Position numbers and translations under genes: made by a program. From Lentisphaeria bacterium (GTDB lineage Bacteria > Verrucomicrobiota > Lentisphaeria > Victivallales > Victivallaceae): 64,000 bases of DNA. Below are positions 12,233-63,607 of the stretch, one piece after another. The stretch spans positions 1 to 64,000 of the forward strand of contig JAFTRX010000101.1 in the NCBI GenBank assembly GCA_017462015.1, given 5' to 3'. The notes under the pieces are model-generated. The model was not told the DNA's origin and did no database searches. It saw only the letters and a program-made list of their open reading frames with translations. Positions within the stretch are counted from its first letter, which is position 1; every line of letters begins with the position of its first letter.

Positions 12233-12355
12233 ATGCCGCAAGGCGAACTTTGGAAAGCCAGCAGCGCAATACGACCAACTGCTCCGACCGTCCGGGCAAA
12301 TATCCGGAAAAATCCGGCTCGACTTTCCAGATGGTTAATGTCCCAAATTTTGTGA
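12233..12355 (+). CDS. Possible 40-aa basic small protein
   Basis: An open frame ATG...TGA of 41 codons preceded by GGAGG with 6-base spacing, which is better than most genes here. The product is basic and Arg-rich (RPTAPTVRANIRKN) with no recognised domain. No promoter was found, so it would be read through from the nitroreductase gene. It may be chance, and only conservation in relatives would settle it. Confidence 0.3.
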   Translation: MPQGELWKASSAIRPTAPTVRANIRKNPARLSRWLMSQIL

Positions 12356-12417
12356 AACTGAATATTCTCTGAAAGAAAATTGTATTTATATTACTTAAAA
12401 AATATATGACAGAGAGT

Positions 12418-12602
12418 GTGATTTGTCAAGAATAAAAACAGTCGTTTGCAATCGGCGGATGGATCGTGCGGCAAGGTTGCTGGTAAATCAAGGCGAAGCT
12501 GAAGGAGTGGACTTACGTCCTCGACTGAAGATGAGTCCGCAGATTTGCCGGTAAGATTGCCCACGAGGCGCCGCCGCAGTTTAGATTTCTCACAAAAAAT
12601 GA
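12418..12602 (+). repeat. Interspersed hairpin element, copy A
   Basis: 185 bp that recur inverted at 63608-63792 with 5 differences and no gaps (hand count). The 126-bp core (12453-12578) recurs at 22434-22559 at about 79% identity. The core folds into one long hairpin: CGGCGG/CCGCCG, CGTG/CACG, GGCAA/TTGCC, then a 13-pair stem including GGTAAATC/GATTTGCC, and an apical GGAC-TTAC-GTCC. It carries a weak open frame on the minus strand, but the copies differ at protein-changing positions, so it is not treated as coding. Confidence 0.85.
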
Positions 12603-12635
12603 TACAACACCTCCAGATGTGCAAAGATTACTGAT

Positions 12636-20481: not shown

Positions 20482-20895
20482 TCAGGCTTGGCGCGCCAGG
20501 AATTTGCAGCGCACGCAAAGCTTGTTGGCAGCACGGCTCATCGCCTCTTTCGCCACGGCTTCGCTGCAGCCGGAGATTTCAAACAGGATACGTCCCGGAA
20601 GAACCGGAGCGACCCAGCCTTCAACAGCACCTTTTCCCTTACCCATACGGACTTCCAAGGGTTTCTTGGTGTAGGAACGGTACGGGAACATGCGGATCCA
20701 CACGCGACCGCGACGTTTCAGGTGACGGGTAATAGCCACACGAGCGGCCTCGATCTGATTGTTGGAAATGTACCCACGGGTCAGCGTCTGAAGCGCGTAA
20801 TCGCCAAAATCAACTTTGTTGTTGGTTGTGGCGAGTCCGGCGTTACTTCCGCGCTGAACCTTTCTGTACTTTACCCTTTTTGGCATTAACGGCAT
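20482..20895 (-). CDS. rplP: 50S ribosomal protein L16
   Basis: 137 aa. [16 protein letters not shown] at the N-terminus and [65 protein letters not shown] are diagnostic; L16 helps position tRNA at the A site. The conserved N-terminus fixes the start at 20895 (SD GGAGGAA, 9 bases). This start lies 53 bases inside the end of rpsC, in another frame. Confidence 0.97.
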
Positions 20896-21550
20896 AATCT
20901 TCTTCCTCCGCAGAGTCCTTATGACAAATCCAAACCTTCACGCCGATCTTTCCGGCGGTCGTGTTTGCCTCAATGAAACCGTAGTCGATGTTCGCCTTCA
21001 AGGTGTGAAGGGGAACGCGACCTTCCTTGTACTGTTCCTCACGGGCAAGTTCAGCCCCGCCGAGACGACCGGCGCAGTTGATCTTGATACCGTCAGCGCC
21101 CATGTCCATAGCGGACTGGATGGCGCGCTTCATGGCGCGACGGAAACCGATACGGCGCTCAAGCTGCTGGGCAACACTTTCGGCGACCAGCTGGGCGCAG
21201 GTTTCAGCGCGACGCATTTCAGAAACTTCGACAAAGACTTCCTTATCAGAGGCAAGCTTGGCGACGGCGGCACGCAGGCTGTCCAATTCGGCACCTTTTT
21301 TGCCGATGAGGACGCCCGGACGGGCCGAAACGATGGTAACACGCACGCGATTGGCAAAGCGCTCGATCTGAATACGGGCGATTGCGGCGGCGGCAAATTT
21401 TTCCTTGATGAAACTGCGGATGGCGAGATCCTCATGCAGCCAATCTCCGAACTGAGTGCGTCCGGCAGTCTTCTTATCAGAAAACCAACGGGATTCCCAA
21501 TTCTTGGTCAAGGCGGTTCTCAAACCGATCGGATTAACTTTCTGTCCCAC
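20843..21550 (-). CDS. rpsC: 30S ribosomal protein S3
   Basis: 235 aa, starts with GTG at 21550 (GAGGAAC upstream). [23 protein letters not shown], the KH domain ([36 protein letters not shown]) and [75 protein letters not shown] are all present. S3 lines the mRNA entry channel. The last about 17 residues (rich in Lys) are encoded within the start of rplP. Confidence 0.97.
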
Positions 21551-21567
21551 GATTTGTTCCTCTTTCC

Positions 21568-21900
21568 TTAGATGTCGCTCAAAACGACTTCCAGATGACT
21601 GGTGCGTTTGCGGATGCGTCCGGCCGAACCGCGTGCCTTCGGACGGAACCGACGGATGATCGGACCCGGGCTGACGAGCGCCGCCTTAACGGTGAGCGCC
21701 TTGCGGTTGACGTCGCAGTTGTTTTCGGCGTTGGCAACGGCGGAGCGCAGCGTTTTGCCGATCAGAGCGGCCGCCTTACGCGGGCTCAGGTCAACGATCG
21801 CGAGCGCTTCGACCACGCTTTTTCCCTGGATCAGACGGGACACATGCCGCGCCTTCTCCGGAGAAATCCGGACGTTTTTGGTTAAAGCTCTTACTTCCAT
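21568..21900 (-). CDS. rplV: 50S ribosomal protein L22
   Basis: 110 aa. [52 protein letters not shown] and the exit-tunnel hairpin region [27 protein letters not shown] identify L22. It is the first gene of the operon here: rpsS, rplB, rplW, rplD, rplC and rpsJ, which normally precede it, are not in the window. The SD is weak (GAAAG). A promoter and a leader of about 340 nt lie upstream. Confidence 0.96.
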
Positions 21901-22277: not shown

Positions 22278-22387
22278 GTCATTTTTTAAAAAAAATCGAC
22301 TTTTTTTCCGTTTTTGGCACGAAAACGACCGTTTTTCGTTGCCCGCGCCCTTTTTTTCAACGAACCGTCGGACGAGAGCAAGACGCG

Positions 22388-22560
22388 TCCGCGAGGCGCC
22401 GCCGCATGCCATGCTGAACGACCAGACCCCGCGCGGCGGATGCATCGTGCGGCAAGGTTGGGGGGAAATCAAGGTAATGCCGAGGGAGTGTACGACTGTA
22501 CTCGACCGAGGCAGAATCCGCAGATTTGCTCCCAAGATTGTCCGCGAGGCGCCGCCGCAT
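22388..22560 (+). repeat. Interspersed hairpin element, copy C, flanked by 20-bp direct repeats
   Basis: The core 22434-22559 aligns with 12453-12578 without gaps (about 100 of 126 identical by hand) and keeps the same stems. Differences fall in paired bases: GGGGGGAAATC pairs with GATTTGCTCCC with one mismatch, and the apical stem becomes GTAC-GACT-GTAC. The 20-base sequence ending the element (22541-22560) also occurs just before it (22388-22407), so a truncated second unit or a target duplication lies upstream. Its last base is the first base of the stop codon of the symporter gene. Confidence 0.8.
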
Positions 22561-23912
22561 CAAAAGAACTGAATGTAGCCCCAAATAAATATAGTTATAA
22601 CGATGAGCGGCAGAATGAAGCGGCAATAATTTTTCATCCATGCAGGGAAAAGCACACCCTTACCGGTATTTGCCTCCTGAGTAAATGCCTGCCAGTTCAG
22701 CGCACAATACAGCACGATCAGCAATGAACCGATGGGCAGCAGATTCTGGCTGACGAGAAAATCCTCCAAATCGAGAATGGAACTGTTTCCGCCCAGCGGA
22801 TGAACACTTTTCCATATATTAAAGCCGAAGACGCATGGAAGCGAGAATATTGCCACGCCGACACCGGTTATCAATGCGGCAGCTTTGCGCGGCAATTTCA
22901 CTTCGTCGATGAAAAACGCAATCAGGTTTTCAAATACCGCCACCACCGTGGTCAATGCCGCAAGCGACAGAAACACAAAAAACAATGCGCCCCAGAAACG
23001 TCCTCCTGCCATATTATTAAATATGTTCGGCAGGGACACAAAAATCAATCCCGGCCCGGAATTGACACCGACACCATACGAAAAGCATATCGGGAAAATT
23101 ATCATACCGGCCATGAACGCTATCAGCGTATCAAGTGCAATGATAATCACGCTCTCTCCGGCAAGCCGCCGTTCTTTGCCGATGTAACTGCCGAAGATCG
23201 CCATACTGCCGACACCGATGCTCAAGGTGAAAAACGCCTGCCCCATCGCCGCGAAAACCGTTTCTCCGGGGGCAGAGACAAAGTTGTTCCAATCCGGCTT
23301 GAGATAGAAGGTCAGCCCTTCCGCACACCCTTTGGTCGTCAACGCATATCCGGCAAGCACAGCGATCAGGACAAAAAGCGCGCCCATCATATATTTCACC
23401 ACCTTTTCCACTCCGTTGCGCAAACCTCCGGCGCAGATAACGGTTGCCAGAAACACCGTCAGCAACATATAACCGCCGCTGACTGACGGCGTACCGGTAA
23501 GTTGTTCAAATGCCGCGCCCACTTCACTTGCAGGGACATTGACCAGCGAACCATCTATATAATTTTTGGCATACGCCAGCAACCATCCGCTGACGGTGGT
23601 ATAATAGATCATAAGGATGAAATTGCCGATAAACACCAATTTTGCCGGCAACACCCAGCGGCGGCGGTTATCAGTGAGGTTGCGGAAACTTCCGATAAGA
23701 TTCGCCTGTCCCATTCTGCCGACACTGAGTTCCATGGTCAATATGGGAAATCCCAGCAACGCAAGAAATATCAGATAAAGCAGAACAAACATCCCACCGC
23801 CGTATTTCCCCGCAACGAACGGGAAACGCCACACATTACCCAATCCGACGGCACACCCGACCGACAACATAATGAAACCCAACCGGCTTCCTAAAGATTC
23901 TCTGTTACTCAT
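22560..23912 (-). CDS. Sodium-dependent transporter of the neurotransmitter:sodium symporter (NSS/SNF) family
   Basis: 450 aa, about 11-12 membrane segments. The family N-terminus RLGFIMLSVGCAVGLGNVWRFPFVAGKYGGGMFVLLYLI holds the unwound TM1 sodium/substrate site (GCAVGLGNVWRFP). TM6 shows FFTLSIGVGSMAIFGSYI. Bacterial members import amino acids or related amines with sodium; the substrate is not predictable. AGGAG lies before the ATG and a good promoter upstream. The stop codon lies exactly at the edge of repeat element C, so the C-terminus may have been reshaped by that element. Confidence 0.92.
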   Translation of the reverse strand: MSNRESLGSRLGFIMLSVGCAVGLGNVWRFPFVAGKYGGGMFVLLYLIFLALLGFPILTMELSVGRMGQANLIGSFRNLTDNRRRWVLPAKLVFIGNFILMIYYTTVSGWLLAYAKNYIDGSLVNVPASEVGAAFEQLTGTPSVSGGYMLLTVFLATVICAGGLRNGVEKVVKYMMGALFVLIAVLAGYALTTKGCAEGLTFYLKPDWNNFVSAPGETVFAAMGQAFFTLSIGVGSMAIFGSYIGKERRLAGESVIIIALDTLIAFMAGMIIFPICFSYGVGVNSGPGLIFVSLPNIFNNMAGGRFWGALFFVFLSLAALTTVVAVFENLIAFFIDEVKLPRKAAALITGVGVAIFSLPCVFGFNIWKSVHPLGGNSSILDLEDFLVSQNLLPIGSLLIVLYCALNWQAFTQEANTGKGVLFPAWMKNYCRFILPLIVITIFIWGYIQFF

Positions 23913-33491: not shown

Positions 33492-34307
33492 TCAATAGAA
33501 ACTGCGGGGGAACTTCAGCGTTACACTGAGAAAGTTCGCCGCCAGTGCCGTCCACTGGGAAAGGGCGTGACAGCCAAGTCCCAGACCGCGGCCGTGCGGA
33601 CCTTCCGGGAAGATGTGCATTTCGCAGATTTTTCCCTTCGCCATCATCGCATCGGCAAAAGCAAAAGAATTCTTCACCGGAACCGCCTGATCCGTGACCG
33701 TATGCCAGAGGAACGCCGGAGGAGCATCTTCCGTCACCGCTTTGTGAAGATCCATTTTAGCTCTCGCACTCTCCGGGGCATCAACGCCCAGCAGATTCCG
33801 GGGACTGCCCCGGTGAGCGTAATCTTCCGTTGCCGCAATCACCGGATAGCAAAGCAGCATGGCATCGGGACGGGCGGAAAAGCTGTCCGCTTCATCGCCT
33901 TCGCGATGGGTCGCATCCTGATAATAAAGTCCGGCAGTTCCGGCGAGGTGGCCGCCGGCGGAAAATCCGCAAACTGCGATTTTGTCCGGATCGACCGCCC
34001 AAGCCGTTGCATTCTGGCGGATGATCCGGATGGCACGCGCCACATCGTTGAGTCCGGCGGGATAGGTGTAGGGCTTCACCCGGTACTGCACGACTACCGC
34101 ATGGAAGCCTAATTCATTGAAACGCATGGCAATGGGGTCGCCTTCGTGATATGCCCGGTGACTGTATCCGCCGCCGGGGAGAACGACCACCAGACCGAGC
34201 GGATCTTTAGCGGCGGAAAGCAGAAAAGTGTCCATATAGGGAGCAAAAAAATCGTCCTGATTTCCGGTCGGCGCCGGAGCGGGGTTCTGATATAAATTGA
34301 TTCTCAT
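33492..34307 (-). CDS. Alpha/beta hydrolase, BD-FAE/esterase-lipase type (copy 2)
   Basis: 271 aa, no signal peptide. PGGGY (residues 44-48) provides the oxyanion hole, GFSAGGH gives nucleophile Ser116, TDQAVPV the acid and EGPHGRGL the His. Such enzymes remove acetyl or other acyl groups from sugars. It is a close paralog of the gene immediately upstream (31-bp gap, same landmarks at the same residues). AGGAG precedes the start. Position in an operon ending in metH is unexpected. Confidence 0.88.
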   Translation of the reverse strand: MRINLYQNPAPAPTGNQDDFFAPYMDTFLLSAAKDPLGLVVVLPGGGYSHRAYHEGDPIAMRFNELGFHAVVVQYRVKPYTYPAGLNDVARAIRIIRQNATAWAVDPDKIAVCGFSAGGHLAGTAGLYYQDATHREGDEADSFSARPDAMLLCYPVIAATEDYAHRGSPRNLLGVDAPESARAKMDLHKAVTEDAPPAFLWHTVTDQAVPVKNSFAFADAMMAKGKICEMHIFPEGPHGRGLGLGCHALSQWTALAANFLSVTLKFPRSFY

Positions 34308-34337
34308 ATTAAAAACTCCTGAATTGAAATTATTCTG

Positions 34338-35153
34338 TCAATACTGTATTGCCCGGGGAAAGCCGCAACTCTTTTCGAGGAAGGTCGCCGCTTCTTTGCT
34401 CCAAGTGACAATGTCCTTGTAGGCAATGGCCAAACCGCGGCCGTGCGGTCCTTCCGGATAGATGTGCAGTTCGCACGGACGCTGACATTTCCACATCTCC
34501 CGGGCAAAGGCAACGGAACACTCCACGGGAACGCTTTTGTCCGTCGCCGTGTGCCACACATAAGCCGGAGGAGTGTTGTCGTCCACCAGTTTCCACGGGT
34601 CGATCTCTTTACCGTTTTCATCGCGGTAGGGTGTACCGGAAGGCAGTTCCCTGCCGAGGTCGGTATAGGTCCAGGTGGTGGACAGCACCCCATAGCAGAG
34701 CAGCATGGCATCGGCATTGCCGGGGAAATTGTCCGCTTCATCACCTTCTGCGACCTGATAACGGTCACTGAGCATACCGGCGCAGGCGGCAAGGTGTCCT
34801 CCGGCGGAAAATCCGCAAACTGCGATCTTATCCGGCTGAACGCCCCAGGCTTCCGCATTGGCGCGGATGATTTTTATGGCACGCGCCGCATCCATCTGCG
34901 GAGCGGGGTAGGTGTAAGGCTGAACCCGGTACTGCAGCACAAAAGCGTGATAACCCAGACGGTTGAATGCTTCAGCAATGGGGTCGCCTTCATGGAACGC
35001 CCGATGGTTATAACCGCCTCCGGGAAGGACCAGCACCGCTCCGCAGGGATTTTTCACCTGACGGAGCAAAAAGGTATCCATGTACGGAGCAAAAAAATCT
35101 TCCTGACTGCCATTCGGCGCCGGAGCGTTCTCTTTGTAAAGTTCTATACGCAT
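34338..35153 (-). CDS. Alpha/beta hydrolase, BD-FAE/esterase-lipase type (copy 1)
   Basis: 271 aa, same length and landmarks as the downstream paralog: PGGGY oxyanion segment, GFSAGGH with Ser116, TDKSVPV and EGPHGRGL. The two differ mainly between residues 120 and 190 (DRYQVAEGDEADNFPGN here), which usually shapes the substrate pocket. Probably a cytoplasmic deacylase for imported sugars (inference). It is the first gene of the esterase-esterase-reactivase-metH operon and is divergent from a FadR-type regulator. Confidence 0.88.
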   Translation of the reverse strand: MRIELYKENAPAPNGSQEDFFAPYMDTFLLRQVKNPCGAVLVLPGGGYNHRAFHEGDPIAEAFNRLGYHAFVLQYRVQPYTYPAPQMDAARAIKIIRANAEAWGVQPDKIAVCGFSAGGHLAACAGMLSDRYQVAEGDEADNFPGNADAMLLCYGVLSTTWTYTDLGRELPSGTPYRDENGKEIDPWKLVDDNTPPAYVWHTATDKSVPVECSVAFAREMWKCQRPCELHIYPEGPHGRGLAIAYKDIVTWSKEAATFLEKSCGFPRAIQY

Positions 35154-40260: not shown

Positions 40261-43200
40261 TTACTCCCACGAGAAGGTGCGCGTATCCGCATCAAACACC
40301 AGTGCGGTGGCATCAGCAAGAGATGCCGCCGCTTCCAACTGGATGTAGTAACTTCCGGATGCCAGCTGAATATCTTTGCCGGGAACGGTTTTGACCTGAG
40401 AAAGAACTCCTTTGCTTTCGTTGTACATGTAGAGTTCGAGCGAACCGTTGTCCGAAGAGGCAAAAGTGTACTCCCAACCGGCATCGGCGGAAGTAACATT
40501 GAAGTTGACCAGCGCAGTTCCGCCTCTGGACAATGCACCTATTTCCGCAGCGGCATCCTGATCAAACGCGGCATCGATATACGCCGCCGTCTTGCCGGAA
40601 GCGGAGAGAGAATAGATAGTTTCCTTTTTGGCATCTCCGGCTTCGAGTGCGGCGTAGTATTCAACACCGGCTTCGAGATGCACCGGAGCCATGACTGTAT
40701 CAGCTTTCAATTTTACGGTTTTGATGACGGCTGCCATCTTGCCGGAAGCCGAATCATAGCGGTAAAGGGTGAACTTCAGCGCATTGGAGGTTGCGATATT
40801 GAAAGTATACTCTCCGCTCTGCGCGGCAGTGAGGTTTATGTAATCATACTTATCGCCGTAACCGACAAAGCCCATATCTTTTCCGACCAGAACGGTATCA
40901 CCGCCGGCAACGACGGCGGTCTTGGCTGAAGCGGCACTGTTATCGCTGTTGTCGTTGTCCGCATGGTCAAATACGAGCGAACTTCCGGTACTGAGCGAAT
41001 AGCATCCGTAGCCGCCCTTTGCGGTATTGGCGCAGGATACGCCGATAAAATATTCACCTTTATCGAGGAGAAGATCTTTTTTGAGCGTGGCATCACCGGC
41101 GGCAGAGAGGTTGACCGTACCGAGTTTCACCAGCGCCGTACCGGCGGCGTTCCAGGTGTAGAGCGTGGCGGTGAGTTTGGCATTCTGTTCAGAGGAAGAG
41201 AGGGTGTAGTTGTAATATCCGTCATGCTCCACGTTCCAGACGAAGAAATCCTGTGCATCGCCGTACCCGGCAAAATACTTTTTTTCAACATCGATATTCT
41301 GAGCGTTGCAGACATCATCATCCAAAGAGGAGATATCGGCGTGATCGAAGACGACCGGAGCGTTGAAATCGAGGGTGTAAGTACCATATCCGCCCTTGCC
41401 GGTATTGGCACACTCAACGGAGACATAGTAATCTCCGGCAGTGAGGAAAACATCTTTTTTAAGCGTTGCGTCTCCGGTGGCGGTCGAGGCTGAGAGCGCG
41501 GTGGAACCGACTTTGACCAGTGCCGTACCGGCAACGTTCCATTGGTAAATGGTGACGGTCAGATTGGCAGAGCGCTTGTTCGACTTCAGCGCGAGATTAT
41601 ACCATCCGGCATAGTCGAGGGTGACTTTGCGGAAATCGGTATCATTTTCGCCGCCGAGGTAAGCATCGCGTGCCAGATTGACTGAACCGCATTCAGCGAT
41701 ATCGAAGCAGTATTCCGGGGCAAGCTGCCAGATGGCATCATCGGAGGAAAACACTTTTTCCGGTGTCGCGTCGGGGTCGACCCATGCGGCGGTAGTGGAG
41801 ACGGAAATTTCCGAATACAAGCCTTTTTTAGCGGCGGCGGTACTGTCGATCTGGCAGAAGTAAACACCGTTACCGGTAAGAGAGAGCGAATCGAAGGTCA
41901 CCGTTTTTCCGGCGGCGACAGAAACGCTCTTGACTTTTTTGACACTGTTGCCGTCATCGGAAAGCTGATAAATGGCAAACGCTGCCGCGCCGGAACCGGT
42001 ATTGCTGACGGTAAAGGAGAAAATACCGCCGTTGGCGACCTCGTCTTTGAGGTCAAAATTGAACCAACTGACCTGATCATCGCCGCCGGAAGCATAAGCC
42101 TTCAATAGAGACGGGGATTTTTTCTTTTTGATCTCAAGCGCGGCTGCCGCAGCAAAAGATGATGCTCCGACAGCAAGTTCCGGGGTCGTATCTGCAGTAA
42201 ATATCTTTTCCGGAGATGCCGTAATGGAAATATTGGCATACTGCTTGGATTTTGCGGCGGCGGCGCCGTCGATCTGGATAAAATATTTTTCTGCCGGATC
42301 AAGGGTGATCCCGGCAAGAGAAACGGTTTTTCCGGCGGCGGCGGTGACACTTTTCACCTTTTTGAGCGTATTGCCGATTTGCATCCAGATGGTGACAACA
42401 GCCTTGCCGTTGCCGGTATTGGCGACATCAAAAGTAAATTTGCCGCCATACGGAGCGCGCTTATCCATATCAAGGGCCAGAAACTCTGTTGCGGCGCCGA
42501 AACCGGCGTAAATATCGTTTTTGATGGTGGCATTGAGCTGAACGCGCTTGGCGTTGCGGAAATTTTCCGCGTTATCAGCGGCGACCGGATAAACGGTCTC
42601 TGCGTTGCTGTTGATGACGAAACCGACATCGGCGCCCTTGGCGGTATTGGCAGATTTGACCGAGATGAAATATTCGCCCTGCGCAAAAAATACGGATTTG
42701 GAAGAGAAAATCGTTCCAGCATCACCGGAGCTGACATTTTTGGTTTTGAAACTCAAAACTTTGGTCAGTGCGGTCTTGCCTTCATCCATGGTGTAAACCG
42801 TGATGGTGAGCGCGTTATTGCCGGAAGATTGTTTTATCTCCGGAGCGAGCGAGAGGGTATAAATGCCATCGGAGATGACGCTCCATGAATAAAACACTTC
42901 CGGAGAAGCGAAGTTCACTCTGCCGGAACTTACCTCCGAAAGCGTAAGAGTGGTCGTCAGCGCGGCGCGATCCTCAGCGGAAGAAACATCATAAACTTTT
43001 CCGGAGATACTTGCGCCGTAAATCGAACCATAACCCTTACTGCCGGAGGTCGATTCAAACTTGACATAATAGGTTCCCGAAGCGAGCTGTTTATCTTTGA
43101 TAAGCTGTGCCGCTTCAGCAGTATCTTTGAGAGAGACAGTCGCTATACTGGTGAGCTTGGTTCCGGAAACGGAATAAAGCGTAGCTTTCAAGGCGGTTCC

Positions 43201-45075
43201 GGTGCCGTTTTTCTTGGTCAGATCGATGGAATAAACGCCGTCCTGAGCGACATTGAGCTGGCGCCAGTCGGAAAGATCGCTGTAACCGACGAACTCATAA
43301 TAGTTGTCACCATCGGAGATGACCGCCGAAGCGATACCGTTTTCGCCGGGGGCAACGGTAATGCGCACAGCATCTTCAACGAGGGAGTTGAAAGAGTCAT
43401 CATCATAGAGATTGGCGCGGAAAAAGAGGTCGATACTTTCGATATGGGCAAAAGAATTTTCCTTGATCGCGCCGCCGATTTCCGGGGTGCAGATCAGGGT
43501 ATAATCACCTTCATCGAGGAGGAAATCATTTTTCTGCCCTTCGGCGACAGTGCCGCCTGTGATTTTCAAAGAGGCGACAATTTTGCCGGTGGGATCTTTG
43601 ATGACGGCACTGCCGGAAAAGTTGTTGGCGTTAATAAAATCACCGAGCTTGAAACGTCCGGCGCAGTTGAGAGAAAATTCCAGAGAAGCCACGTTTCCGG
43701 CAGAAAAGTTCCAGGAATTGAAGGTTTTGTCGTAGATGGTATTGTTGACCACGGAGACTTTGAGAGTGCCGTTATCGTTGGAAAGAGTGTAGTCGATATA
43801 ATTGGCGGAGATGGTCTCGCCGACAGAAACGTAGTAGGTTTTGGAAACCCAGTCATCGTTGTAGATGCCGAGAGAACCGGTAAAACCTTCAGCGCCGTCC
43901 GCGAGAGTATAGGTATTGTCGGCGATATCGCCGGGGACGGAGATAAAACAGTTGTCGGTATTTTCGCCGAGAAGGTTGAAGCTGTGGAGCATTGCCTTGC
44001 CGCTGATGCTGTCGATATTGGCGGCATCGAGCCAGAGATAGATACCGGAATCAGCATTGGTAAAGGTTATATCGCCGCCGACAGTTACTTCGCCTTTGGT
44101 AAAGAACTTGCCTTCGACGACCGCGCCTTCATCAAAATTAGCGGCACCGCCGATATCGGAGATATTTTCCTCTCCGGCAAGGATACCGCCGGAAGCGAAC
44201 TGCACCATACCGCCGTTGAGGACGATGGTATTGACGGCAGTACCGCCATTGCTGACGAATTGGGAACCGCCGGAAGAGATCACGGCATTTTCGGCAAAGG
44301 CAGATGCTTTGGCGACCTGCTGCAAACCGCCGACCACAGCAGAAACGGCACTGCCGGAAAGGACAGTTTGAGTACCTTGGGCGAGGATGACCGTCTCCGA
44401 AGCGAAGCCGCCGGAAATAAGTTGAGCGCCGCTGGAAACGACTGCGCTGACGGCAGTACCACCGGAAAAAACCGTCTGACTGCCGCGTTTGATGACCGTA
44501 TCTGCTGCCACGCCGCCGGAAGAGACGGCAAATGTGCCGCCGGAGACGATGGAAGCGGAATCAATGCCGCCATTGCTGACGGTCAAAGAGCCGGCGTTGA
44601 CAAAATTGGAAATACCGAAGCCGCCTCTGGCGATGGTGGCAGTACCGCCGGTCACGGTATTTTCACAGGCGGAACCGCCGTTGGAAGCGACGAGATGACC
44701 GGACACGAAACTGCTGGTGATGACACCGCCGGAAAAGACAGAAGCAGAACCGTTGCGTTTGATATCAAGTTCCGCGGCACTCCCCGCCATAAAGGAGGAT
44801 TTGCCGCCGGAAGAGACCATGCCGCCGGAAACAATGACCTTGCCGCCGGAAGAAACGGTGGTTTTGGAGAGAGTTCCTCCTGCCCAAACCTTGATCTGGG
44901 CACGGCTGCCGCCGACAGTTGCGGCACCGGGGACAGAACCGTAAGCAACACCGCCGGCAAGAACATTCAAATACCCGCCATCGGAAACGACAGTATCACA
45001 CCAGATTTTCCCACTGGCGATATTGGCATTGCCGGAAGTGACGACAACGCCGCTGGAAGTAAACTCATTACTCAT
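40261..45075 (-). CDS. Giant surface/secreted protein: AIDA-type repeats followed by PPC-like repeats
   Basis: 1604 aa from MSNEFTSSGVVV at 45075 (AAGGAG upstream); the longer frame runs into the promoter. Residues 1-about 310 are AIDA-like beta-helix repeats (VSSGGKVIVSGG, TVTGGTATIARGG and so on). From about 460 there are eight to nine units of about 130 aa resembling bacterial pre-peptidase C-terminal (PPC) domains, with GYGDAQDFFVWNV, a GDATLKKDLLLDKGEYFIGVSCANTAKGGYG strand set and DHADN linkers. There is no Sec signal peptide and no autotransporter barrel; it ends LVFDADTRTFSWE. Export by a type I system is possible but unproven. Adhesion is the usual role of such repeats. Confidence 0.75.
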   Translation of the reverse strand: MSNEFTSSGVVVTSGNANIASGKIWCDTVVSDGGYLNVLAGGVAYGSVPGAATVGGSRAQIKVWAGGTLSKTTVSSGGKVIVSGGMVSSGGKSSFMAGSAAELDIKRNGSASVFSGGVITSSFVSGHLVASNGGSACENTVTGGTATIARGGFGISNFVNAGSLTVSNGGIDSASIVSGGTFAVSSGGVAADTVIKRGSQTVFSGGTAVSAVVSSGAQLISGGFASETVILAQGTQTVLSGSAVSAVVGGLQQVAKASAFAENAVISSGGSQFVSNGGTAVNTIVLNGGMVQFASGGILAGEENISDIGGAANFDEGAVVEGKFFTKGEVTVGGDITFTNADSGIYLWLDAANIDSISGKAMLHSFNLLGENTDNCFISVPGDIADNTYTLADGAEGFTGSLGIYNDDWVSKTYYVSVGETISANYIDYTLSNDNGTLKVSVVNNTIYDKTFNSWNFSAGNVASLEFSLNCAGRFKLGDFINANNFSGSAVIKDPTGKIVASLKITGGTVAEGQKNDFLLDEGDYTLICTPEIGGAIKENSFAHIESIDLFFRANLYDDDSFNSLVEDAVRITVAPGENGIASAVISDGDNYYEFVGYSDLSDWRQLNVAQDGVYSIDLTKKNGTGTALKATLYSVSGTKLTSIATVSLKDTAEAAQLIKDKQLASGTYYVKFESTSGSKGYGSIYGASISGKVYDVSSAEDRAALTTTLTLSEVSSGRVNFASPEVFYSWSVISDGIYTLSLAPEIKQSSGNNALTITVYTMDEGKTALTKVLSFKTKNVSSGDAGTIFSSKSVFFAQGEYFISVKSANTAKGADVGFVINSNAETVYPVAADNAENFRNAKRVQLNATIKNDIYAGFGAATEFLALDMDKRAPYGGKFTFDVANTGNGKAVVTIWMQIGNTLKKVKSVTAAAGKTVSLAGITLDPAEKYFIQIDGAAAAKSKQYANISITASPEKIFTADTTPELAVGASSFAAAAALEIKKKKSPSLLKAYASGGDDQVSWFNFDLKDEVANGGIFSFTVSNTGSGAAAFAIYQLSDDGNSVKKVKSVSVAAGKTVTFDSLSLTGNGVYFCQIDSTAAAKKGLYSEISVSTTAAWVDPDATPEKVFSSDDAIWQLAPEYCFDIAECGSVNLARDAYLGGENDTDFRKVTLDYAGWYNLALKSNKRSANLTVTIYQWNVAGTALVKVGSTALSASTATGDATLKKDVFLTAGDYYVSVECANTGKGGYGTYTLDFNAPVVFDHADISSLDDDVCNAQNIDVEKKYFAGYGDAQDFFVWNVEHDGYYNYTLSSSEQNAKLTATLYTWNAAGTALVKLGTVNLSAAGDATLKKDLLLDKGEYFIGVSCANTAKGGYGCYSLSTGSSLVFDHADNDNSDNSAASAKTAVVAGGDTVLVGKDMGFVGYGDKYDYINLTAAQSGEYTFNIATSNALKFTLYRYDSASGKMAAVIKTVKLKADTVMAPVHLEAGVEYYAALEAGDAKKETIYSLSASGKTAAYIDAAFDQDAAAEIGALSRGGTALVNFNVTSADAGWEYTFASSDNGSLELYMYNESKGVLSQVKTVPGKDIQLASGSYYIQLEAAASLADATALVFDADTRTFSWE

Positions 45076-45103
45076 AAATATTCTCCTTATTTTATTCGAG
45101 GTA

Positions 45104-45132
45104 AATATACCACAGGAGAAGGAGTTTGTCAA
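45104..45132 (-). promoter_or_regulatory. Promoter of the 1604-aa giant gene
   Basis: Minus strand TTGACA (45127-45132), 17 bases, TATATT (45104-45109): the best promoter match in the window. The expected leader is about 20 nt with AAGGAG before the start. Confidence 0.75.
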
Positions 45133-45155
45133 GTGGCACTTCCGGGTGGAGCTGG

Positions 45156-45380
45156 CGCCAGTGCGGGCTGCCAATTGGAAACGACCGTTAGTACGGATAA
45201 GTACGGATGTGTACGGATAGGTACGGAGGGGGGCTGCTGGTGTGAAGGGCGGAGTATTCTGGTGCTGTAAGAAAGAACCCGTCTATGGACAAGCAACTCT
45301 ACACTCTCCGTACACATCCGTACTTATCCGTACACATCCGTACAGACCGGCTTGCGTGCAAGGGGCTGCCCGCACTGGCG
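45156..45380. repeat. Inverted repeat built of 10-bp tandem units
   Basis: Four units of GTACGGATnn stand at 45191-45230, and the same units in reverse at 45308-45343. 45191-45217 and 45307-45333 are exact reverse complements (27 bp). Outside them, 45156-45168 and 45368-45380 also match in reverse (13 bp). The whole is a 225-bp imperfect palindrome with a 90-bp centre, between the two giant genes. No transposase frame lies within it. Confidence 0.85.
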
Positions 45381-45394
45381 GCAGCCCTCCAAAC

Positions 45395-45424
45395 AAAAAA
45401 AACCTCCCCGGTTTGGGGAGGCTT
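45395..45424 (-). terminator. Rho-independent terminator of the 2890-aa giant gene
   Basis: Stem CCTCCCC/GGGGAGG (45403-45409 with 45415-45421), 5-nt loop, then T8 on the minus strand (45395-45402). It lies about 60 bp after the stop at 45485. Confidence 0.9.
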
Positions 45425-45484
45425 TGAGTAGACACTCGCAGGAGGAAGAGTTTTTCAACTCTTCCATCCTTGAGGGTTTGACCA

Positions 45485-48400
45485 TTACGCGATGGTGATG
45501 GTGTACGCCTTGAGGGTGGTGTCGTATTCGCAGGTCGCGGTAAGACCACCATCCAAAGTGAGAGACCAGCCCGCGATAGCAGCATCGTTGCTGACAGCAG
45601 CAGCGGACTTGAACAGCGTGACCACGTCATCGCCAGCGGCAAGACCGGCGAAGTCTTCTTTGGCCAGAGCGCTGAGGTCGAGGGTTGCAGCAGCAGCATC
45701 CGCAGCAGACAGCTCGGTCGTGAGATCGAGGAGCGTGGTTCCAGCGGCAACCGCAGCGGAGAGATCGAAGGCGATCGTCTCAACACCAGCCAGGCTGGCA
45801 GCCTTGACAGCAGCACCGATGACGAGCGTGTCAGCACCAGCGGCGAGGTCGATGGCACCGGCGTTGGCGCTCAGGGTCAGAACATCATCATTAGCGCTAC
45901 CGGCGATACCGGTGGTCGCCTGAAGAGCGACGTTAGCCGCACCGTCGATGGCAATGTTGGTAACACTGCCGGTACCGGTGTAGCTGCCGAAGCCGGAAGC
46001 AGTACCGCTGATCGCGGCGTTGGCGATGAGTTCAACACCGGCGGCACCAGTGACGTTACCGGTGATCGCGGAACCGATGGTCAGAGCACCGGCACCGGCG
46101 ATGGAGACGTTACCAGTCAGGGTACCGGCACCTTCGATGGCACCGTAACCGGAGAAGTAGACGCTCGCGGCGGTGTTGGCACCTTCGAGGGTCAGGGTAT
46201 CGACGGCGGTATCAGCGGAACCGGCGAAGTTGACGATCTGGACGTTAGCGCCATTCAAGGTCAGCTTGTCCTGAGCAACAGTACCCTCCAGGGTCGCCTT
46301 AACAGTACCTTCGCCAGTGACACTCATTTCGGTGAAGGCGATGGTGGTACCGTTCAGGACAGCATCCTTGTTGACGGTGACAGCATCGATACCGGAAGCG
46401 GCGGCGATGGTGTTGACACCATTGACGATCAGGCTGTCGATGTTGTTGGCGACGGCGGCATTGACCTTACCGTTGAGGGTCAGGGCGTTCAGGTTGGCAA
46501 CAGAACCGACCAAGAGGACACCGCTGTCGTTGACGGAAGCATCAGCACCGTCGATATCAGCAGCACCGGAGATGGTGAGGCTGGTAACGTTATTCTGACC
46601 GATAACAGTGATACCATCGACGTCATAGACGTCTTCCTGAGTACCGGTGACCGCGACGATGCTGTTGTTGACAACAGTGACGGCGGCGGCGTTGGCAGTG
46701 CCGTTGATCTTGGCTTCGTTGGCAACATTCCAGCTGCCGGCGCCGAAGTTGAGGGCACCCTGAGTGACAACAGCCACAGTGGCGGCGGGATCCTCAGTGA
46801 ACTCGACAACCTGATTCAGGATGACGTTACCGTTGATGACGGAGGTGAGAGAAGAATCAAACGCCTTGTTGAGGATGACTTCACCAGTGATAGCACCGAC
46901 AACCTTGAATCCATCAGCGTTGACCACAACACCGGAGGAGAGGTCGCCGTTGACGGTGAAGTAGGCGGCATCAACGATCGTGGAAGCGGCAGAGACGTTA
47001 CCATTGACGGTAACATTGGCGCGCGTGATGTTGAGGACAGCTTTACCTTCGAGATCGGCGTTGATAGCGGCATCGGCGGTGTAGCCTTCAGCTCCAACGA
47101 TGTTCAGGGAGTCGAACGCAACCTTGGCGGCGGTGAGAACAACGCCGTCAGCCATGACGATGGCATCAGTTCCGGCACCGAAGTCGAATTCTTTCTTGGC
47201 GCCATCGACGATAGCGGCATTTTCAGAACCGGCAACAGCTTCCCAGTAACCTTCGCCAGTGGCGGCATCGGTGATGACATACTGATAGTTGGTGGCAATG
47301 TCACCGATAACGATGTCGTTAAGGGTCAGGTCGCCGTTGAGAGCGAGGACATCATCAGCATCGCTGAGTTTGACGGAACCGTTGACAGTGATATCGCTGC
47401 TGACTTTGAGAACTCCGGCACCTTCAACGGTGGTGGTATCAACACCGGTGACAGTGACTTTGATGTTGCTCTTGTCGAACTTGGCGGGATCATCATCGGC
47501 GAGGGAGGCATCGATGAGTTCGAAGGCGACACCGTAGGTATTGCCGTTGATTTCGACGCTGAACGCGCTGGTGGTAACATCAGCGGTCAGGCTGTCGCCG
47601 AGAGCGGCGAGGATGGCATCTTCGAGCTGTTCTTTGACATCTTCCATCGCGACGTTGCGATCGAGGCTGACATTGTTAATGTCGAGACCGCCGTTGAACT
47701 TGACTTTGTCGACCGACAAGGTGTTGGCGGCGGCAGAAGTAAGTTTGTCCATACCGGCAGTGGTTTCGTTGACAGCGGCAGTACCGAAGTCGAGGACACC
47801 GGTGATGCGATCGTCGGAACCGACAGTAATGGTATCAACAGCGTTGGAACCGGTAACGTTGCCGATGATGGTAACGTCGTTTTCGAGAGTCAGCGCGACA
47901 TTGTCATACGCGGTAGTAACAACATCTTCCGACTTGAAAGCGCCGAGACCGGCAGGACCGAAGGCACCGAGCCACTTGTAGTAAGCGACATTGGCGTAGG
48001 TTCCCGGAGTGATGGAGGTGCTGAGTTCCGGAGCATCAGCGGTGAAGTTGGCAGTGATATCAGAACCAGCTGCAACAGTGAGCTCGCTGAAGGTGACTCC
48101 GCCGTTGACCTCGTTGTTACCGCCGAATTTATCAGCGTTGGTAAGGTCGGCAGCGCCGGAAACGACACCGTTGAGGGTGAGGTTGTTGGCACCGGCATAA
48201 CCTTCGCTCTTTTCGGCGAAGCTGACGTCGCCGGCAACATCACCATTGATGGTCGCACCAGCGACATCGGTGAGCACAACATTTCCAGCGATATCTGCGA
48301 TGATGGTCGCATTATCGGCTCCGGTGATCGCAACGTTGTCGTTGATCACAGAGGCACCGATCGTACCATTGCCGATCATGGAGAAACCGTTTCCATCGGT

Positions 48401-51400
48401 GTTGATGGCGGCATCTACGGTATTGAGGACATCCGGAGTTTCGGGGTTGCTGTCATCGTCCCAGAGGTAGGAGTATTCAGCGCTCAAAACTTTGCCGTTG
48501 AGAGCAACCGTGTTGACAGTGACACCGTTTTCGCCATCGACGGTCAGGTTGCTGCCGTCAAGGGTCAGCTTATCAGCGGTGAAGTCACCATAGACCTTGA
48601 CATTGGCTCCGGCGACGGTGAGGTCGTCAGCAGTGATGTCGGCAGTGATGACCCGGTCGAGGTTGGCATACAGCTTGTCGCTGCCTTTACCGAAGTCGAT
48701 AGCGGTCGCGGTAACGTCAGTGAAGGCATCGATAACGTCATCACCTTCTCCGAGAGCGATGGAACCATCGATCACAGCAGCAGTACCGGTGATGATCAAC
48801 TTATCGTTGACATCAGCACCTTCAGCGCCGTAGGGAACAGAGGTGATGTCGGCAGTGAGCTTGCCATTGAGGTTGGCGGTCAGGTTCTGGCTGAATTCGA
48901 CACCATTGGTGACAGCGACGTCAGCGCCGATGGTCAGGGTATTGCCTTCGACAGCAGTGGTCGCAACGTAAGAGAGCTTACCGGCGATTTCCTGCGCAAC
49001 GGAGATGGCAACCGCGTTGCTGTTGGTACCGACCATGGCGATATCGCCAGCCAGTTTGACGTTGGCATTGTTGATGGTCAACGCAGCATTTTCACCAGTG
49101 GTGATACCTTCGATGACGTTTCCGCCGACGATACCGTTGATGGTGAATTCTTTGTCACCGTTGACAGTGAGCTGGTTGGCTTTGATTTCGCCGCTGATGG
49201 TGAGCGCATTGCTGACGGTCAGTTCATCGACGGAGATGTTCGCGACGGTAACAGAACCATCAACACCAACGGTGAGAGATTTGGCAGTAATGTCGCCAGC
49301 GAGAGTGATCGCGCCATTGGCAATGATCTCATCCGTGGTGTAGATACTGTCGGCAATAAGTTCACCGGTGACGTTGACGTACCAACCGGCATTGACGGCG
49401 GCGACTTCAGCTTTACCTGTAACGTTGACGAAACCAGTGGCGGTAACATCACCGGCTTCGAGAGTTCCGGCAACGCCGACATTGGCGGCATCGACCGCAC
49501 CAGTGATAACAGCTTTACCACCGAGATCAACAGTGACATCGGAAGCGGCATCGACAGAAGCGGCATTCAGTTCACCATTGACATAGACGAGCCAGTCAGT
49601 CTTAACGGCTTCGGTGACATTGGCTTTACCGGAAACGCTGACGAAACCATCGGCATCGATGCTCTTGACGTTAGCTTCACCGGCGACGGCGACATTACCG
49701 GAAGCCTTGACATCGGCAGCGGTCAGTTCAGCATCAGCATTGACGTTGACGTTGGCAGCGGAGACAGCACCTTCGACAGCAGCTTTGCCGTTGATATCGA
49801 AATCACCGGCGATAGCAGCGCTTCCGGCTTCGAGTTCGCCGTTGACAACAGCGTATGCGGCGGAGAGAGCACCATCGACATCAAGTTTACCGATAACAGC
49901 AACAGCACCGGTCATAGCGGCATCGCCCTTGACAGCGGCAGTTGCATCATCCATGACAGTGAGATTGGCACCGGCAGCATCAACGCCGACGGTCATAGCA
50001 GCCTTCTTACCGACATAGATATCACCGGTGGCGTTCAAGTCAGCGGCAACATCAAGTTTGGCACCGGCTTTGCCTTCGATGACAGTATCTTCGAGAGCAA
50101 CGCTTCCGGCAGTCAGGTTGTTGAACGCGGCAGCAGCGCTGTCGTATTCTTTGGCACCATTGATGGTGGGAGCATCGGCTTTAACAGTAACAGCACCGGT
50201 GACGGTGGCATCTTCAGCGGTGAGCTTGGAGCCTTCGCCGACGTTAATGGCACCGGCAGTGATCGCGCCTTCGCTGATGATGGCTTCGACAGCCTGAGCG
50301 GCAACGTTCAGCAGAGTATCGGCCTTGACATTGCCCTTGATAGCGGCGTTGATAGCGGCGGTATCTTTATCACCCCAGATGACGTAGTCTTCTTCAGCTT
50401 CGCTCTTACCGAGGGTCAGAGTTCCGGCAACGTCGAAATCAGCATCTATGGTTCCGCCGAGAACGGTGAGATCGCCAGTGGCATTGACACCCTTTTCAAC
50501 GATGGAATCGCCTTCGACAACCAGAGTACCGTTGATGAAGTTGAGTTTGCCGTAAGCATCGGTGCTGTATTCGTCGTCATTGTCACGGAAGATTTCAGTA
50601 CCTTCAGCGAGGACAACGGTGGCATTATCAGCGGCGGTGACGTCGGCTTCGAACTTACCATCAAGTTTGACATTACCAATGGCAGTGATTCCGTTGGCAA
50701 CAGGGCCGTTGTAGTTCCAAACGCGGACATCGGCGGCGAGTTCAGCGTTGTTGACAACAACGCCACCCTTGACATCGACAACTCCATTGTCATCGTTGCT
50801 GGAGATAGCGAATTTGCCGTTGTTCAGGGTGAGACCGTTTTCGAAGTCGGCAGTGATAGCAGCTTCGCCTTCGGCAGTGAGGTTGGCAGCACCGGAGACG
50901 ACACCGAGATCGACGACAGCTTTGTCAGCGATGGTCGCGGCGGTGATGGCACTCTTTTCAGCGACAACAGCATCACCGATGGTACCGGCAACAACAGTCA
51001 GTTCAGCAATGTTGGATTCAGTGATGGTAGCACCGTTGATGGTGATCTTGGCGACATCGCCCTTGACCGTACCGGCAGTAGCGGTGACAGTGGCATCTTC
51101 GCCGATAACAACCTTGTGGCTGTCATCACCAAAGGTGAAGTCGGCAGCGATGTTCAACGCATTGGTGACAGTCAGGACACCGGCACCGGCGATAGCGGAA
51201 GTGGCATCGATGGCGAGAGTTCCGACCGTACCATCCTGCGCGATGTTCAGCGTGGAGTCAACGAGGTTGATGCTGATGGCATCAACAACACCTTCAACGT
51301 TGATAACAGAAGCGGTAGCATTATTGATGGAACCGGCGAAGTCAACGACGTTGAGAGTGGAGTTGGTCAGCGCGGCACTTGCGTTCTTGAGAACAGCAGT

Positions 51401-54157: not shown

Positions 54158-54207
54158 TTTGTTCTCCTTCACTTTTAGGGTTAATGAGTGTTACAATTTG
54201 TTTAGTG

Positions 54208-54699
54208 TCAATTTCTAAATTTTTGCGTCAGTACACAGATGACTTTACCGTAACTCTGCATCTGACGGAGAAGTTCCGTACGGCGCACCGCACAAATGAC
54301 CTCCACCGCCCAAGCCGCTTCACAGCAGCTCACAGTGATACAGAATGACGAAAAATCGATTCCGGTACACAACTTGAAACAACCACATTCCGCCAGATCT
54401 GAAACCACTCCGATCACCGGAGTTTCATCCAGTTCCGCAGAACCGTCAAAAGAAAATTTCTCCGCTTCAACGTTGGAAATTTCCGCCGATACACATGCCG
54501 ATGAGGCGACATCAGCATATTCATTATATATATAGGCGGCTTCTACGGTGGAAACGGCATCAGAATTGCCATCAGAAGTGATGGAAGAAACAGCAGGGAG
54601 AACCTCTTGCTCATAAACACAAAAAGCCCTTGCCGAAACACCCGTTTCAGGTGTCAGCAAAGACAAATATCCGGTGCTTTTGCCGGTTGTGATAAGCAT
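54208..54699 (-). CDS. Unknown 163-aa cysteine-rich protein, first gene of the giant-protein transcript
   Basis: I do not recognise it. It has about ten cysteines, several clustered near 106-128 (ECGCFKLC, CITVSCCEAAW), an acidic Ser/Ala-rich middle and a basic tail (VRRTELLRQMQSYGKVICVLTQKFRN). There is no signal peptide. GAGG lies 10 bases before the ATG, and a good promoter 220 nt upstream would make it co-transcribed with the 2890-aa gene, whose start is 50 bp after this stop. It may help export or processing of the giant protein, or be a chance frame. Confidence 0.5.
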   Translation of the reverse strand: MLITTGKSTGYLSLLTPETGVSARAFCVYEQEVLPAVSSITSDGNSDAVSTVEAAYIYNEYADVASSACVSAEISNVEAEKFSFDGSAELDETPVIGVVSDLAECGCFKLCTGIDFSSFCITVSCCEAAWAVEVICAVRRTELLRQMQSYGKVICVLTQKFRN

Positions 54700-54925
54700 A
54701 ATAGATTCGCCTCTCTGTTAACTCATCATACTCTCCATTGCAAACCGGCGTTGCGCATTTGCCAATTTGCGATGGACAACTCTTTTATTTTCTTGTGCAG
54801 ACCACAGACAGAACCTCTTTTTCGCAGTTTCGCGGCTGTTGCAATCAACCGTTTCGCCGGAAATTTCCGTCCCGCAAACGGATTTCCCCCTCCCCGGGGT
54901 ACAATCCTCCTGTCGTCCGGCTATT

Positions 54926-54954
54926 ACTATAGCCCATATTCAAGTTAATTTCAA
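54926..54954 (-). promoter_or_regulatory. Promoter of the 163-aa/2890-aa transcript
   Basis: Minus strand TTGAAA (54949-54954), 17 bases, TATAGT (54926-54931). It leaves a leader of about 220 nt before the start at 54699. Confidence 0.55.
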
Positions 54955-55068
54955 GCAGAAAAAAAAAAAATCCATTTTTTTTTAAAAAAATCACCTCCGG
55001 CGGCGTGTAAAAATGCCAAACTGGCAGTTGACGCACTGCAAAACCCCTCTTGAAAGCGGAAAGCAGTT

Positions 55069-55102
55069 GTCGGACGAGTCGGACAAATCAGACTTGTCCG
55101 AC
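55069..55102. repeat. Short tandem/palindromic island of GTCGGAC units
   Basis: 9-bp units GTCGGACGA, GTCGGACAA, ATCAGACTT and GTCCGACAA in a row. GTCGGACAA (55078-55086) and TTGTCCGAC (55094-55102) form a 9-bp stem. It lies 27 bp after the trxA stop but has no T-run, so it is not a standard terminator. It resembles in style the 10-bp units at 45191-45343. Confidence 0.7.
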
Positions 55103-55128
55103 AAAAGCACTTGGAGTGTGGGGCGGGT

Positions 55129-55437
55129 TCAGGAGCAGAGCATTTCGATGATTTTTGCTTTGGACACCATGCCGCAACTGGCAAGATTTTTGCCGTCTTT
55201 ATACAGCACCAAAGTCGGGATGGTCGTCACATTGAAGCGGGCGGCAAGTTCCGGGTGATCGTCGATATTAACTTTCAACACCACGGCACTCTCCGGCGCG
55301 GAAGGAAGCGCCTGTTCGATGACATTGCCCAATACCCGGCAATAACTGCACCACGGCGCCCAGAAATCCACCAGAACAGTTCCCGTGGCGACAACGTCAT
55401 CAAAATTTTTTTCAGTCAATTCACGCATCACAGCCAT
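55129..55437 (-). CDS. trxA: Thioredoxin-family protein with CSYC active site
   Basis: 102 aa, a full single thioredoxin fold: VLVDFWAPWCSYCRVLGNVI with Cys30-Ser-Tyr-Cys33, and cis-Pro in TTIPTLVLYKDG. It reduces protein disulfides in the cytoplasm. The usual pair of residues in the site is Gly-Pro; Ser-Tyr would raise or lower the redox potential, so it may be a specialised thioredoxin. GGAGG lies 9 bases before the ATG, and an 11-bp inverted repeat lies just ahead of that. Confidence 0.88.
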   Translation of the reverse strand: MAVMRELTEKNFDDVVATGTVLVDFWAPWCSYCRVLGNVIEQALPSAPESAVVLKVNIDDHPELAARFNVTTIPTLVLYKDGKNLASCGMVSKAKIIEMLCS

Positions 55438-55451
55438 TTTCGATTCCTCCA

Positions 55452-55484
55452 GTGTTATATTGCCTTCTTCCTACAATATAACAC
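55452..55484. promoter_or_regulatory. 11-bp inverted repeat upstream of the thioredoxin gene
   Basis: GTGTTATATTG (55452-55462) and CAATATAACAC (55474-55484) are exact reverse complements around 11 bases. It ends 2 bases before the GGAGG of the thioredoxin gene and lies 30 bp after the tyrS stop. It may be an operator or an mRNA hairpin near the ribosome site; no T-run follows. Confidence 0.5.
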
Positions 55485-55513
55485 CGGGAGGGAAAAATGC
55501 AAGTGATATGCGC

Positions 55514-56800
55514 TCAGTTGAAGATGACTTTTTTGAAGTTTTTCTTTCCGGTTTGCAGCAAAAGTTCACCGTCAGCAACCGCATCACGTTTCAGTGACAG
55601 ATTCATATCGGTCACTTTTTCGCCGTTGATTTTTACTGCGTTGCCCTGGATCAGACGGCGGGCATCGCTGTTGGTTTTGCACATACCGGCGCTGACGATA
55701 AGTTTCACGATCCACAGACCATCGCCGTCAAGTTCGCTTGCGGGAATGGTGACTTCAGGATAGTTGACTTCGACCTTGCATTCGATGCCGGCGATGGCGC
55801 TGGTGGTGACGACTTTGCGTTCCGGATCGGCGAAACCGAACTGGCTTCCGGCGGTGAGGAACGCCTCTTTTGCCGCCTGTTCGCCGTGCGCCATTTTGGT
55901 CGCTTCAAAGGCGAGGATCTCTTTGACCCGGTTGATATTTTCACATTCAGCCAGAGCCACACACTCTTCAACCGGAAGTTCAATGGCGAACTTCTTGAGC
56001 AGTTCACCGACCATGGCATCGTCGATGTTGCGCCAGAACTGGTAGTAATCAAACACACCGGTGCGGTTGACATCCAGCCAGACACTGGCTCCGCCGACGG
56101 ACTTGCCGAACTTCTGTCCGGTGGCGGGGTTCATCAACAACGGAATGGTCAACACATGAACTTCACGTTCCTCTTCGTACATACGGCGAATGAGTTCAGT
56201 TCCGGCAACCATGTTTCCCCACTGATCCTGACCGCCGATCTCCAGCGTGCAGTTGTACTCTTTGTTGAGGTGGTAGAAGTCATATCCCTGCAGCAGTGAG
56301 TAACTGAATTCAAGGAAAGACAGACCGTTTTCCAACCGGCTTTCGACCGATTTCTGCGCCAGCATGCGGTTGACGGAGAAACGGCTGCCGATGTCACGCA
56401 GGAAGTCCAGCAGCTTGAGGTTGCCGAACCAGTCGTGGTTGTTGACGAAGTTGGCTTCGCCGTTTTCCAGCGTGATGAAACGGGAAAGCTGCGCTTTGAG
56501 GCATTCCACGTTGTACGCGACCTCCTCCATGGAGATCATGTTGCGCGCAGAGGAACGGCCGGACGGATCACCGATAGCTCCGGTGGCTCCACCAACCAAT
56601 ACCGTCGGAACGTGACCGGCTTTCTGCAGCAGACGCATCGCCATCACCGGAAGCAGATGGCCGACGTGCAAACTGGAACCGGTAGGATCAAAACCGCAAT
56701 AAAAGACCACTTTTTCAGTGGAAAGTTTCTTTTCGATCGCCGCTTCATCGGTCATCTGGTAGACGAAACCGCGCGCTTTTAATTCCTGAAAGATATTCAT
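55514..56800 (-). CDS. tyrS: Tyrosyl-tRNA synthetase
   Basis: 428 aa, class I. HVGH at 45-48 is the HIGH motif, KFGKS (after MNPATGQ, near 230) the KMSKS motif, and the C-terminal S4 RNA-binding domain (KTNSDARRLIQGNAVKINGEKVTD) is present. It charges tRNA-Tyr in the cytoplasm. AAGGAA precedes the start; it is 16 bp after trmB in the glyS-rdgC-trmB-tyrS run. Confidence 0.96.
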   Translation of the reverse strand: MNIFQELKARGFVYQMTDEAAIEKKLSTEKVVFYCGFDPTGSSLHVGHLLPVMAMRLLQKAGHVPTVLVGGATGAIGDPSGRSSARNMISMEEVAYNVECLKAQLSRFITLENGEANFVNNHDWFGNLKLLDFLRDIGSRFSVNRMLAQKSVESRLENGLSFLEFSYSLLQGYDFYHLNKEYNCTLEIGGQDQWGNMVAGTELIRRMYEEEREVHVLTIPLLMNPATGQKFGKSVGGASVWLDVNRTGVFDYYQFWRNIDDAMVGELLKKFAIELPVEECVALAECENINRVKEILAFEATKMAHGEQAAKEAFLTAGSQFGFADPERKVVTTSAIAGIECKVEVNYPEVTIPASELDGDGLWIVKLIVSAGMCKTNSDARRLIQGNAVKINGEKVTDMNLSLKRDAVADGELLLQTGKKNFKKVIFN

Positions 56801-56816
56801 TATAAATTTTCCTTAA

Positions 56817-57431: not shown

Positions 57432-57432
57432 A

Positions 57433-58530: not shown

Positions 58531-58556
58531 GACTTAACCTCCGAGAATAAGACCGG

Positions 58557-63578: not shown

Positions 63579-63607
63579 AACAAATTATCCTCTGATTAGT
63601 TGTTATC

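Follow-up and report, generated by a model that had tools for sequence, protein, structure and literature searches.

What is the 126-nt repeat that occurs three times in the 64,000-nt stretch of Lentisphaeria DNA analyzed here (hereafter the window), and why do its copies keep a single long hairpin? We conclude that the repeat belongs to a new family of small non-coding transposons with one long, selectively maintained hairpin, and that the pairing of one particular strand is under selection.

Hairpin copies and their transposon vehicles

A preliminary description of the window had placed copies A (12453-12578, + strand), C (22434-22559, +) and B (63632-63757, -) where we also find them, and they align with one another without gaps. 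Copy C is 79% identical to A and B is 82% identical to C, while A and B share 96% identity across 195 nt. The stems proposed for the three copies are present both in the sequences and in the predicted folds, all three fold alike on the same strand, and the same two lines of evidence bear out the paired differences that had been pointed out: CTGGT/GCCGGT becoming GGGGG/GCTCCC, apical GGAC/GTCC becoming GTAC/GTAC, and CGTG/CACG becoming CGTG/CGCG. The view of the repeat as a 126-bp interspersed element holds for the hairpin but not for the mobile unit, which for copy A is 12334-12611, with inverted repeats and an 8-bp duplication. What the earlier reading missed is that two kinds of miniature inverted-repeat transposon carry the hairpin as cargo, and that it is also found outside them. 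The features of the window are as follows.

12326-12333, no strand: left target-site duplication TCCAGATG of A; the same 8-mer lies at the right flank
12334-12611, +: complete type-1 transposon of copy A, 278 bp, with terminal inverted repeats and 8-bp duplication
12334-12358, +: left terminal inverted repeat GTTAATGTCCCAAATTTTGTGAAAC; 54 genome-wide matches with at most 2 mismatches, reversed control 0
12401-12429, -: outward promoter-like site TTGACA-N17-TATATT in A's element, reading left, away from the hairpin
12453-12576, +: hairpin copy A (fold, covariance-model match)
12586-12611, -: right terminal inverted repeat of A's element
12612-12619, no strand: right target-site duplication TCCAGATG of A
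22384-22405, +: 3'-end remnant of a second copy adjoining C (CGTCCGCGAGGCGCCGCCGCA)
22434-22557, +: hairpin copy C (fold, covariance-model match); terminal inverted repeats not seen
63598-63792, -: stretch of B common to A; type-1 left end missing
63634-63757, -: hairpin copy B (fold, covariance-model match)
63843-63892, -: another stem, CTGCGCCGG/CCGGCGCAG, adjoining B and topped by the same apical motif GGGGTACGACTGTACTCGACT

The two kinds of inverted-repeat element that enclose the hairpin were revealed by comparing the flanks of the copies. Type 1 (GTTAATGTCYCAAATTTTGTGAAAC...TTTCACAAAAAATGAGACAAYACC) is about 278 bp long and is bordered by 8-bp target duplications, and type 2 (CACAGATATCCCATAA...TTATGGGACAGCTGTG) is about 322 bp long with 9-bp duplications. 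At least seven identical flanking bases were found in 23 of the 43 two-ended elements, versus 2.6% of shuffled pairs, and the matching flanks are mostly of exactly 8 (type 1) and 9 (type 2) bases; the left end occurred in none of 90 control stretches. Element-free sites were sought for six of ten loci. The homologue of A's target (TTYCAGATGTGC) is uninterrupted in three related species (G016, G021 and G008), and for a type-2 locus (L101) the matching site in G003 is element-free, the base-exact junction there being blurred by diverged intergenic sequence. Short, non-coding and multicopy, with terminal inverted repeats, target duplications and homologous element-free sites, these elements are miniature inverted-repeat transposable elements (MITEs). 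In 15 of 25 type-1 elements, a consensus promoter (TTGACA, a spacer of 16-18 nt, 17 in 14 of them, and TATATT) lies about 95 bp in from the left end and points outward, away from the hairpin.

Not every copy sits in such a vehicle. Among the 99 copies of the source genome (G000) that have sufficient flanking sequence, both ends of a single type are present in 27, mixed ends in four, one end in 33 and neither end in 35; in the window, copy C has neither inverted-repeat type and copy B has lost its left end. Since at least 35 of the 118 mapped copies lack both types, another route of spread is needed, such as recombination or tandem duplication. Conversely, some type-2 elements of the source genome are devoid of the hairpin and keep both inverted repeats, with a short CCGCAG-like scar left (L351:1505-1745 and L356:440-830), suggesting that the hairpin may be dispensable for transposition.

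A search with Y1, IS1595, IS1 and ISL3 models did not find a transposase with these ends (TGTCYCAAATTTTGTGAAAC or CACAGMTRTCCCATAA). Y1 transposases gave no match in six copy-rich genomes (G000, G003, G012, G015, G018 and G021), and mobilization of the REP/RAYT kind was rejected on this ground, the enzyme being absent from the source and several other copy-rich genomes. IS1595 and IS1, guessed from the inverted repeats and the duplication length, were rejected because they are absent from the genomes of the genus that were searched. The source genome has no ISL3 transposase and a few relatives have one; ISL3 was rejected because its clear ends in G014 (TCTTCGACGGTTTGTGACA) differ, and because type-1 ends are never paired around ISL3 genes. 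The absence of a transposase is weak evidence in a source assembly that is 93% complete and breaks at repeats.

Abundance and distribution

A BLAST search with copy A yielded about 40 near-complete copies in the source genome (2.8 Mb, 131 contigs). A covariance model of the kind proposed earlier, trained on 20 copies, revealed more than 100 further ones: with the best 150 candidates scored, it gave 129 rows in the source genome, where at least 118 distinct, non-overlapping hairpin copies were mapped, including a few that lie below the model threshold or come from related classes. Applied to 60 relatives, ten of which were re-scored in a further run, the model detected copies in 19 of the 34 genomes of the genus, many with 20-60 each, and in none of the 26 genomes of other genera. 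A pattern scan across the whole collection returned, among the matches listed, Lentisphaerae/Lentisphaeria metagenome-assembled genomes, some labelled sheep colon; the named matches listed are uncultured Lentisphaerota, mostly from the ruminant gut, and the two listed from outside the Lentisphaerota both fail the covariance model and were rejected as chance. A phage or plasmid origin was likewise rejected, as no match was found and a lone IMG/VR pattern match fails the model. Rfam gave no match at the gathering threshold, its best weak match scoring below, which agrees with the initial remark that no named family fits. More than a hundred intergenic copies in this uncultured bacterium of the ruminant gut, together with copies in about half the species sampled from its genus, mark the repeat as a genuine, mobile, structured element rather than a fold arising by chance.

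Selection on the pairing of one strand

The folding energy of the sense strand corresponds to z-scores of -5.7 for A, -6.9 for C and -5.3 for B, with none of 200 shuffles as good, whereas the opposite strand, folded for A and C, is much weaker (-1.8 and -2.7). In the alignment of 20 copies, nine pairs have changed on both sides versus 2.7 expected by shuffling (reached in none of 500 shuffles), and the paired fraction falls from 97% to about 40% when the structure is slid. Relatedness was taken into account with 64 copies less than about 96.5% identical, aligned on sequence alone, for which a tree was built; under the null, substitutions were moved among columns within each branch, using our own implementation in the style of R-scape rather than R-scape itself. 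Of about 7,000 column pairs, the six that covary most strongly all belong to the proposed stems, and if only the 48 proposed pairs are counted, 13 reach E<0.05. The covariation signal, strongly positive at the proposed stems only, therefore supports the suggestion, first made from three copies, that a folded RNA or DNA hairpin is under selection. On this strand, G-U occupies 201 cells across the 48 pairs versus 52 for A-C.

Columns 49,50/75,76 and 53,54/71,72 read GA/GA in 56 of the 64 sequences, making two conserved tandem G-A mismatches, and pair 51-74, which lies between them, is A-U in 33 sequences and G-C in 29. It could be argued that the covariation is a functionless by-product of palindrome correction, in which replication switches template between the two arms, as is known for long quasi-palindromes. 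But such correction would erase mismatches, and here GA/GA, GG/GA and U-G stay conserved next to pairs that flip, which argues against simple palindrome correction; we regard this explanation as improbable. An intrinsic terminator was rejected from the sequences of A, B and C, as the stem is interrupted and no T-run stands directly 3' of it.

The hairpin is also modular. At least two further base stems bear the same apical module (L146-L148; L083, L159, L026 and L110), other species (G002, G016, G022 and G029) have a different middle stem (GTCGTGTTTTGCG..), and tandem arrays of the hairpin occur in G015, G030 and G003. Hairpin variants of 169-180 nt with a different apical part (GACCCGTCTCCGC..GCCGTGGCAAGG..CTTGTCGCGGCG..GAAGCCGGAAGTCC) were also noted (L149, L150, L168, L169, L102 and L092). 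In two other species, a REP-like hairpin of about 30 nt (TCCGCCTTTGCCAAGGCTCCGGCGGACAAGG) lies inside the apex of copies (L084:1243-1394, L161:1245-1399 and L070:1653-1807). A second recurrent small hairpin, CTTGTCNCGGCGTAGTGNAACGAAGNCGGA, stands beside the main hairpin or replaces it within similar elements (L078, L205, L153 and L004).

Genomic placement and possible function

With genes called by our own hexamer scorer instead of a standard caller, 115 of the 118 copies lie outside predicted genes. The 3' end of the hairpin is near the right-hand gene, a median of 28 nt from the stop codon if that gene is convergent; for a codirectional gene the median distance to the start is 120 nt, with a lower quartile of 46. 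Orientation relative to this gene is random (58 versus 55), which is unexpected under a strict cis role in one gene. Left-hand genes are more distant and more often codirectional (62 versus 31, p=0.002, the copies not being fully independent). In the window, copy A is flanked by genes for a nitroreductase and a WYL regulator. A convergent SNF transporter gene (22560-23912, -) has its stop codon 2 nt beyond the end of copy C, and a GH1 glycosidase gene (62223-63578, -) begins 55 nt downstream of copy B, on the same strand.

On balance we favor the reading that these are MITEs in which the hairpin of one strand is under selection, probably as RNA within read-through transcripts. Short non-coding MITEs would be moved in trans by a transposase making 8-bp (type 1) or 9-bp (type 2) duplications. 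They carry the hairpin, of about 124 nt, near one end, and many more hairpin copies are now located outside any recognizable element. Because copies sit only some tens of nucleotides from where genes end or begin, neighboring transcription may read through them, and the folded strand may then act as an untranslated-region domain that binds a protein or an RNase and governs how the joint transcript is processed or how stable it is, a role that would resemble that of ERIC and NEMIS repeats. The likeliest candidate for the recognition site is the apical module with its two tandem G-A mismatches. The outward promoter of type 1 could in addition drive a gene on the other side of the element.

The main rival, which we consider unlikely, is that the hairpin acts as single-stranded DNA, extruded in replication or transposition and recognized by a host or transposon protein, so that pairing would be selected during propagation rather than in transcripts. 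That one and the same hairpin is found in both types of transposon, outside transposons and in tandem arrays is consistent with this, G-A and G-T pairs stack in DNA too, and the short scars of hairpin-less type-2 elements resemble palindrome deletion via slippage. However, the strong G-U excess and the near-invariant U-G pairs fit RNA better, a Y1/HUH transposase is absent from the source genome, and the hairpin-less elements keep both inverted repeats, so that mobility probably does not need the hairpin. Alternatively, the hairpin could be a small RNA gene in its own right, working in trans or as a decoy, which has hitched onto transposons and whose many copies raise its dose. The retention of the apical module on at least three different base stems would then suggest recognition by a shared partner, but an unsystematic look did not reveal a conserved sense promoter upstream, the conserved type-1 promoter points away from the hairpin, and about half of the genus lacks the hairpin, all of which makes such a gene improbable. 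More speculatively, and in our opinion doubtfully, a structured RNA or folded-DNA module with tandem G-A elements and a dedicated partner may have spread through the genus on at least two transposon types, swapping base stems and keeping its head. If so, bacteria would have their own version of a structured-RNA parasite or of a distributed RNA regulon.

Relation to known repeat families

The family belongs among bacterial MITEs with structured transcripts and appears undescribed, no description having been found in Rfam or in a literature search. The folding of bacterial MITEs is usually attributed to pairing of their own inverted repeats. In this family the fold is instead carried inside the element as a distinct cargo. 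Its pairing is under measurable selection across about half of the genus, is specific to one strand and reappears on different stems and in different vehicles; the new features are the separation of the hairpin from the inverted repeats, the apical tandem G-A module and the two vehicles.

The ERIC or IRU repeat of enterobacteria is a 127-bp intergenic MITE with tens to hundreds of copies, the transcript of which is one long stem-loop (PMC2229807, PMC10969869). Our elements are similarly intergenic and multicopy with one long stem-loop, but differ in sequence and phylum. In ERIC the termini are TA and the stem itself is closed by a 7-bp terminal inverted repeat, whereas the Lentisphaerota hairpin lies inside the element as cargo, with target duplications of 8 or 9 bp; ERIC membership was rejected, as the elements begin with GTTA or CACAG instead of TA. 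The Correia or NEMIS element of Neisseria is a short inverted-repeat element near genes, with outward promoter-like sites and an RNA stem-loop, and effects of read-through RNA have been argued for both NEMIS and ERIC (PMC2229807, PMC10969869). The likeness to NEMIS extends to all of the element features just listed, except that in NEMIS the stem is formed by inverted repeats of 24-26 bp with TA ends, while in our elements stem and inverted repeats are separate. RUP, BOX and SPRITE of the pneumococcus are MITE-like, structured and confined to close relatives, as are our elements, and BOX is modular (PMC3049150). Shared sequence with these was not noted, and RUP is linked to IS630-Spn1 (PMC2229807), in contrast to our elements, for which no partner was found. 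REP/BIME repeats are likewise interspersed intergenic palindromes, but REPs are short and tied to the Y1 transposase that is absent from the source genome. GTTRRRY core sites, as in the attC sites of integrons, were not noticed by eye. With hundreds of copies in many species, the family constitutes a well-sampled natural set for asking why bacterial interspersed palindromes stay structured, and it adds an undescribed repeat that fragments ruminant-gut Lentisphaerota assemblies.

Other features of the window

The region 20482-21900 contains a gene for ribosomal protein L22 (Pfam match), with neighboring ORFs resembling S3 and L16. Upstream come the repeat-rich stretch around copy C and then the SNF transporter gene, where an S10-type operon would predict more ribosomal genes. 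At 33572-35127 a gene segment is duplicated in tandem with a spacing of about 846 nt and 74-84% identity, and a long run of weak direct repeats at 40892-58683 suggests a very large repetitive protein gene.
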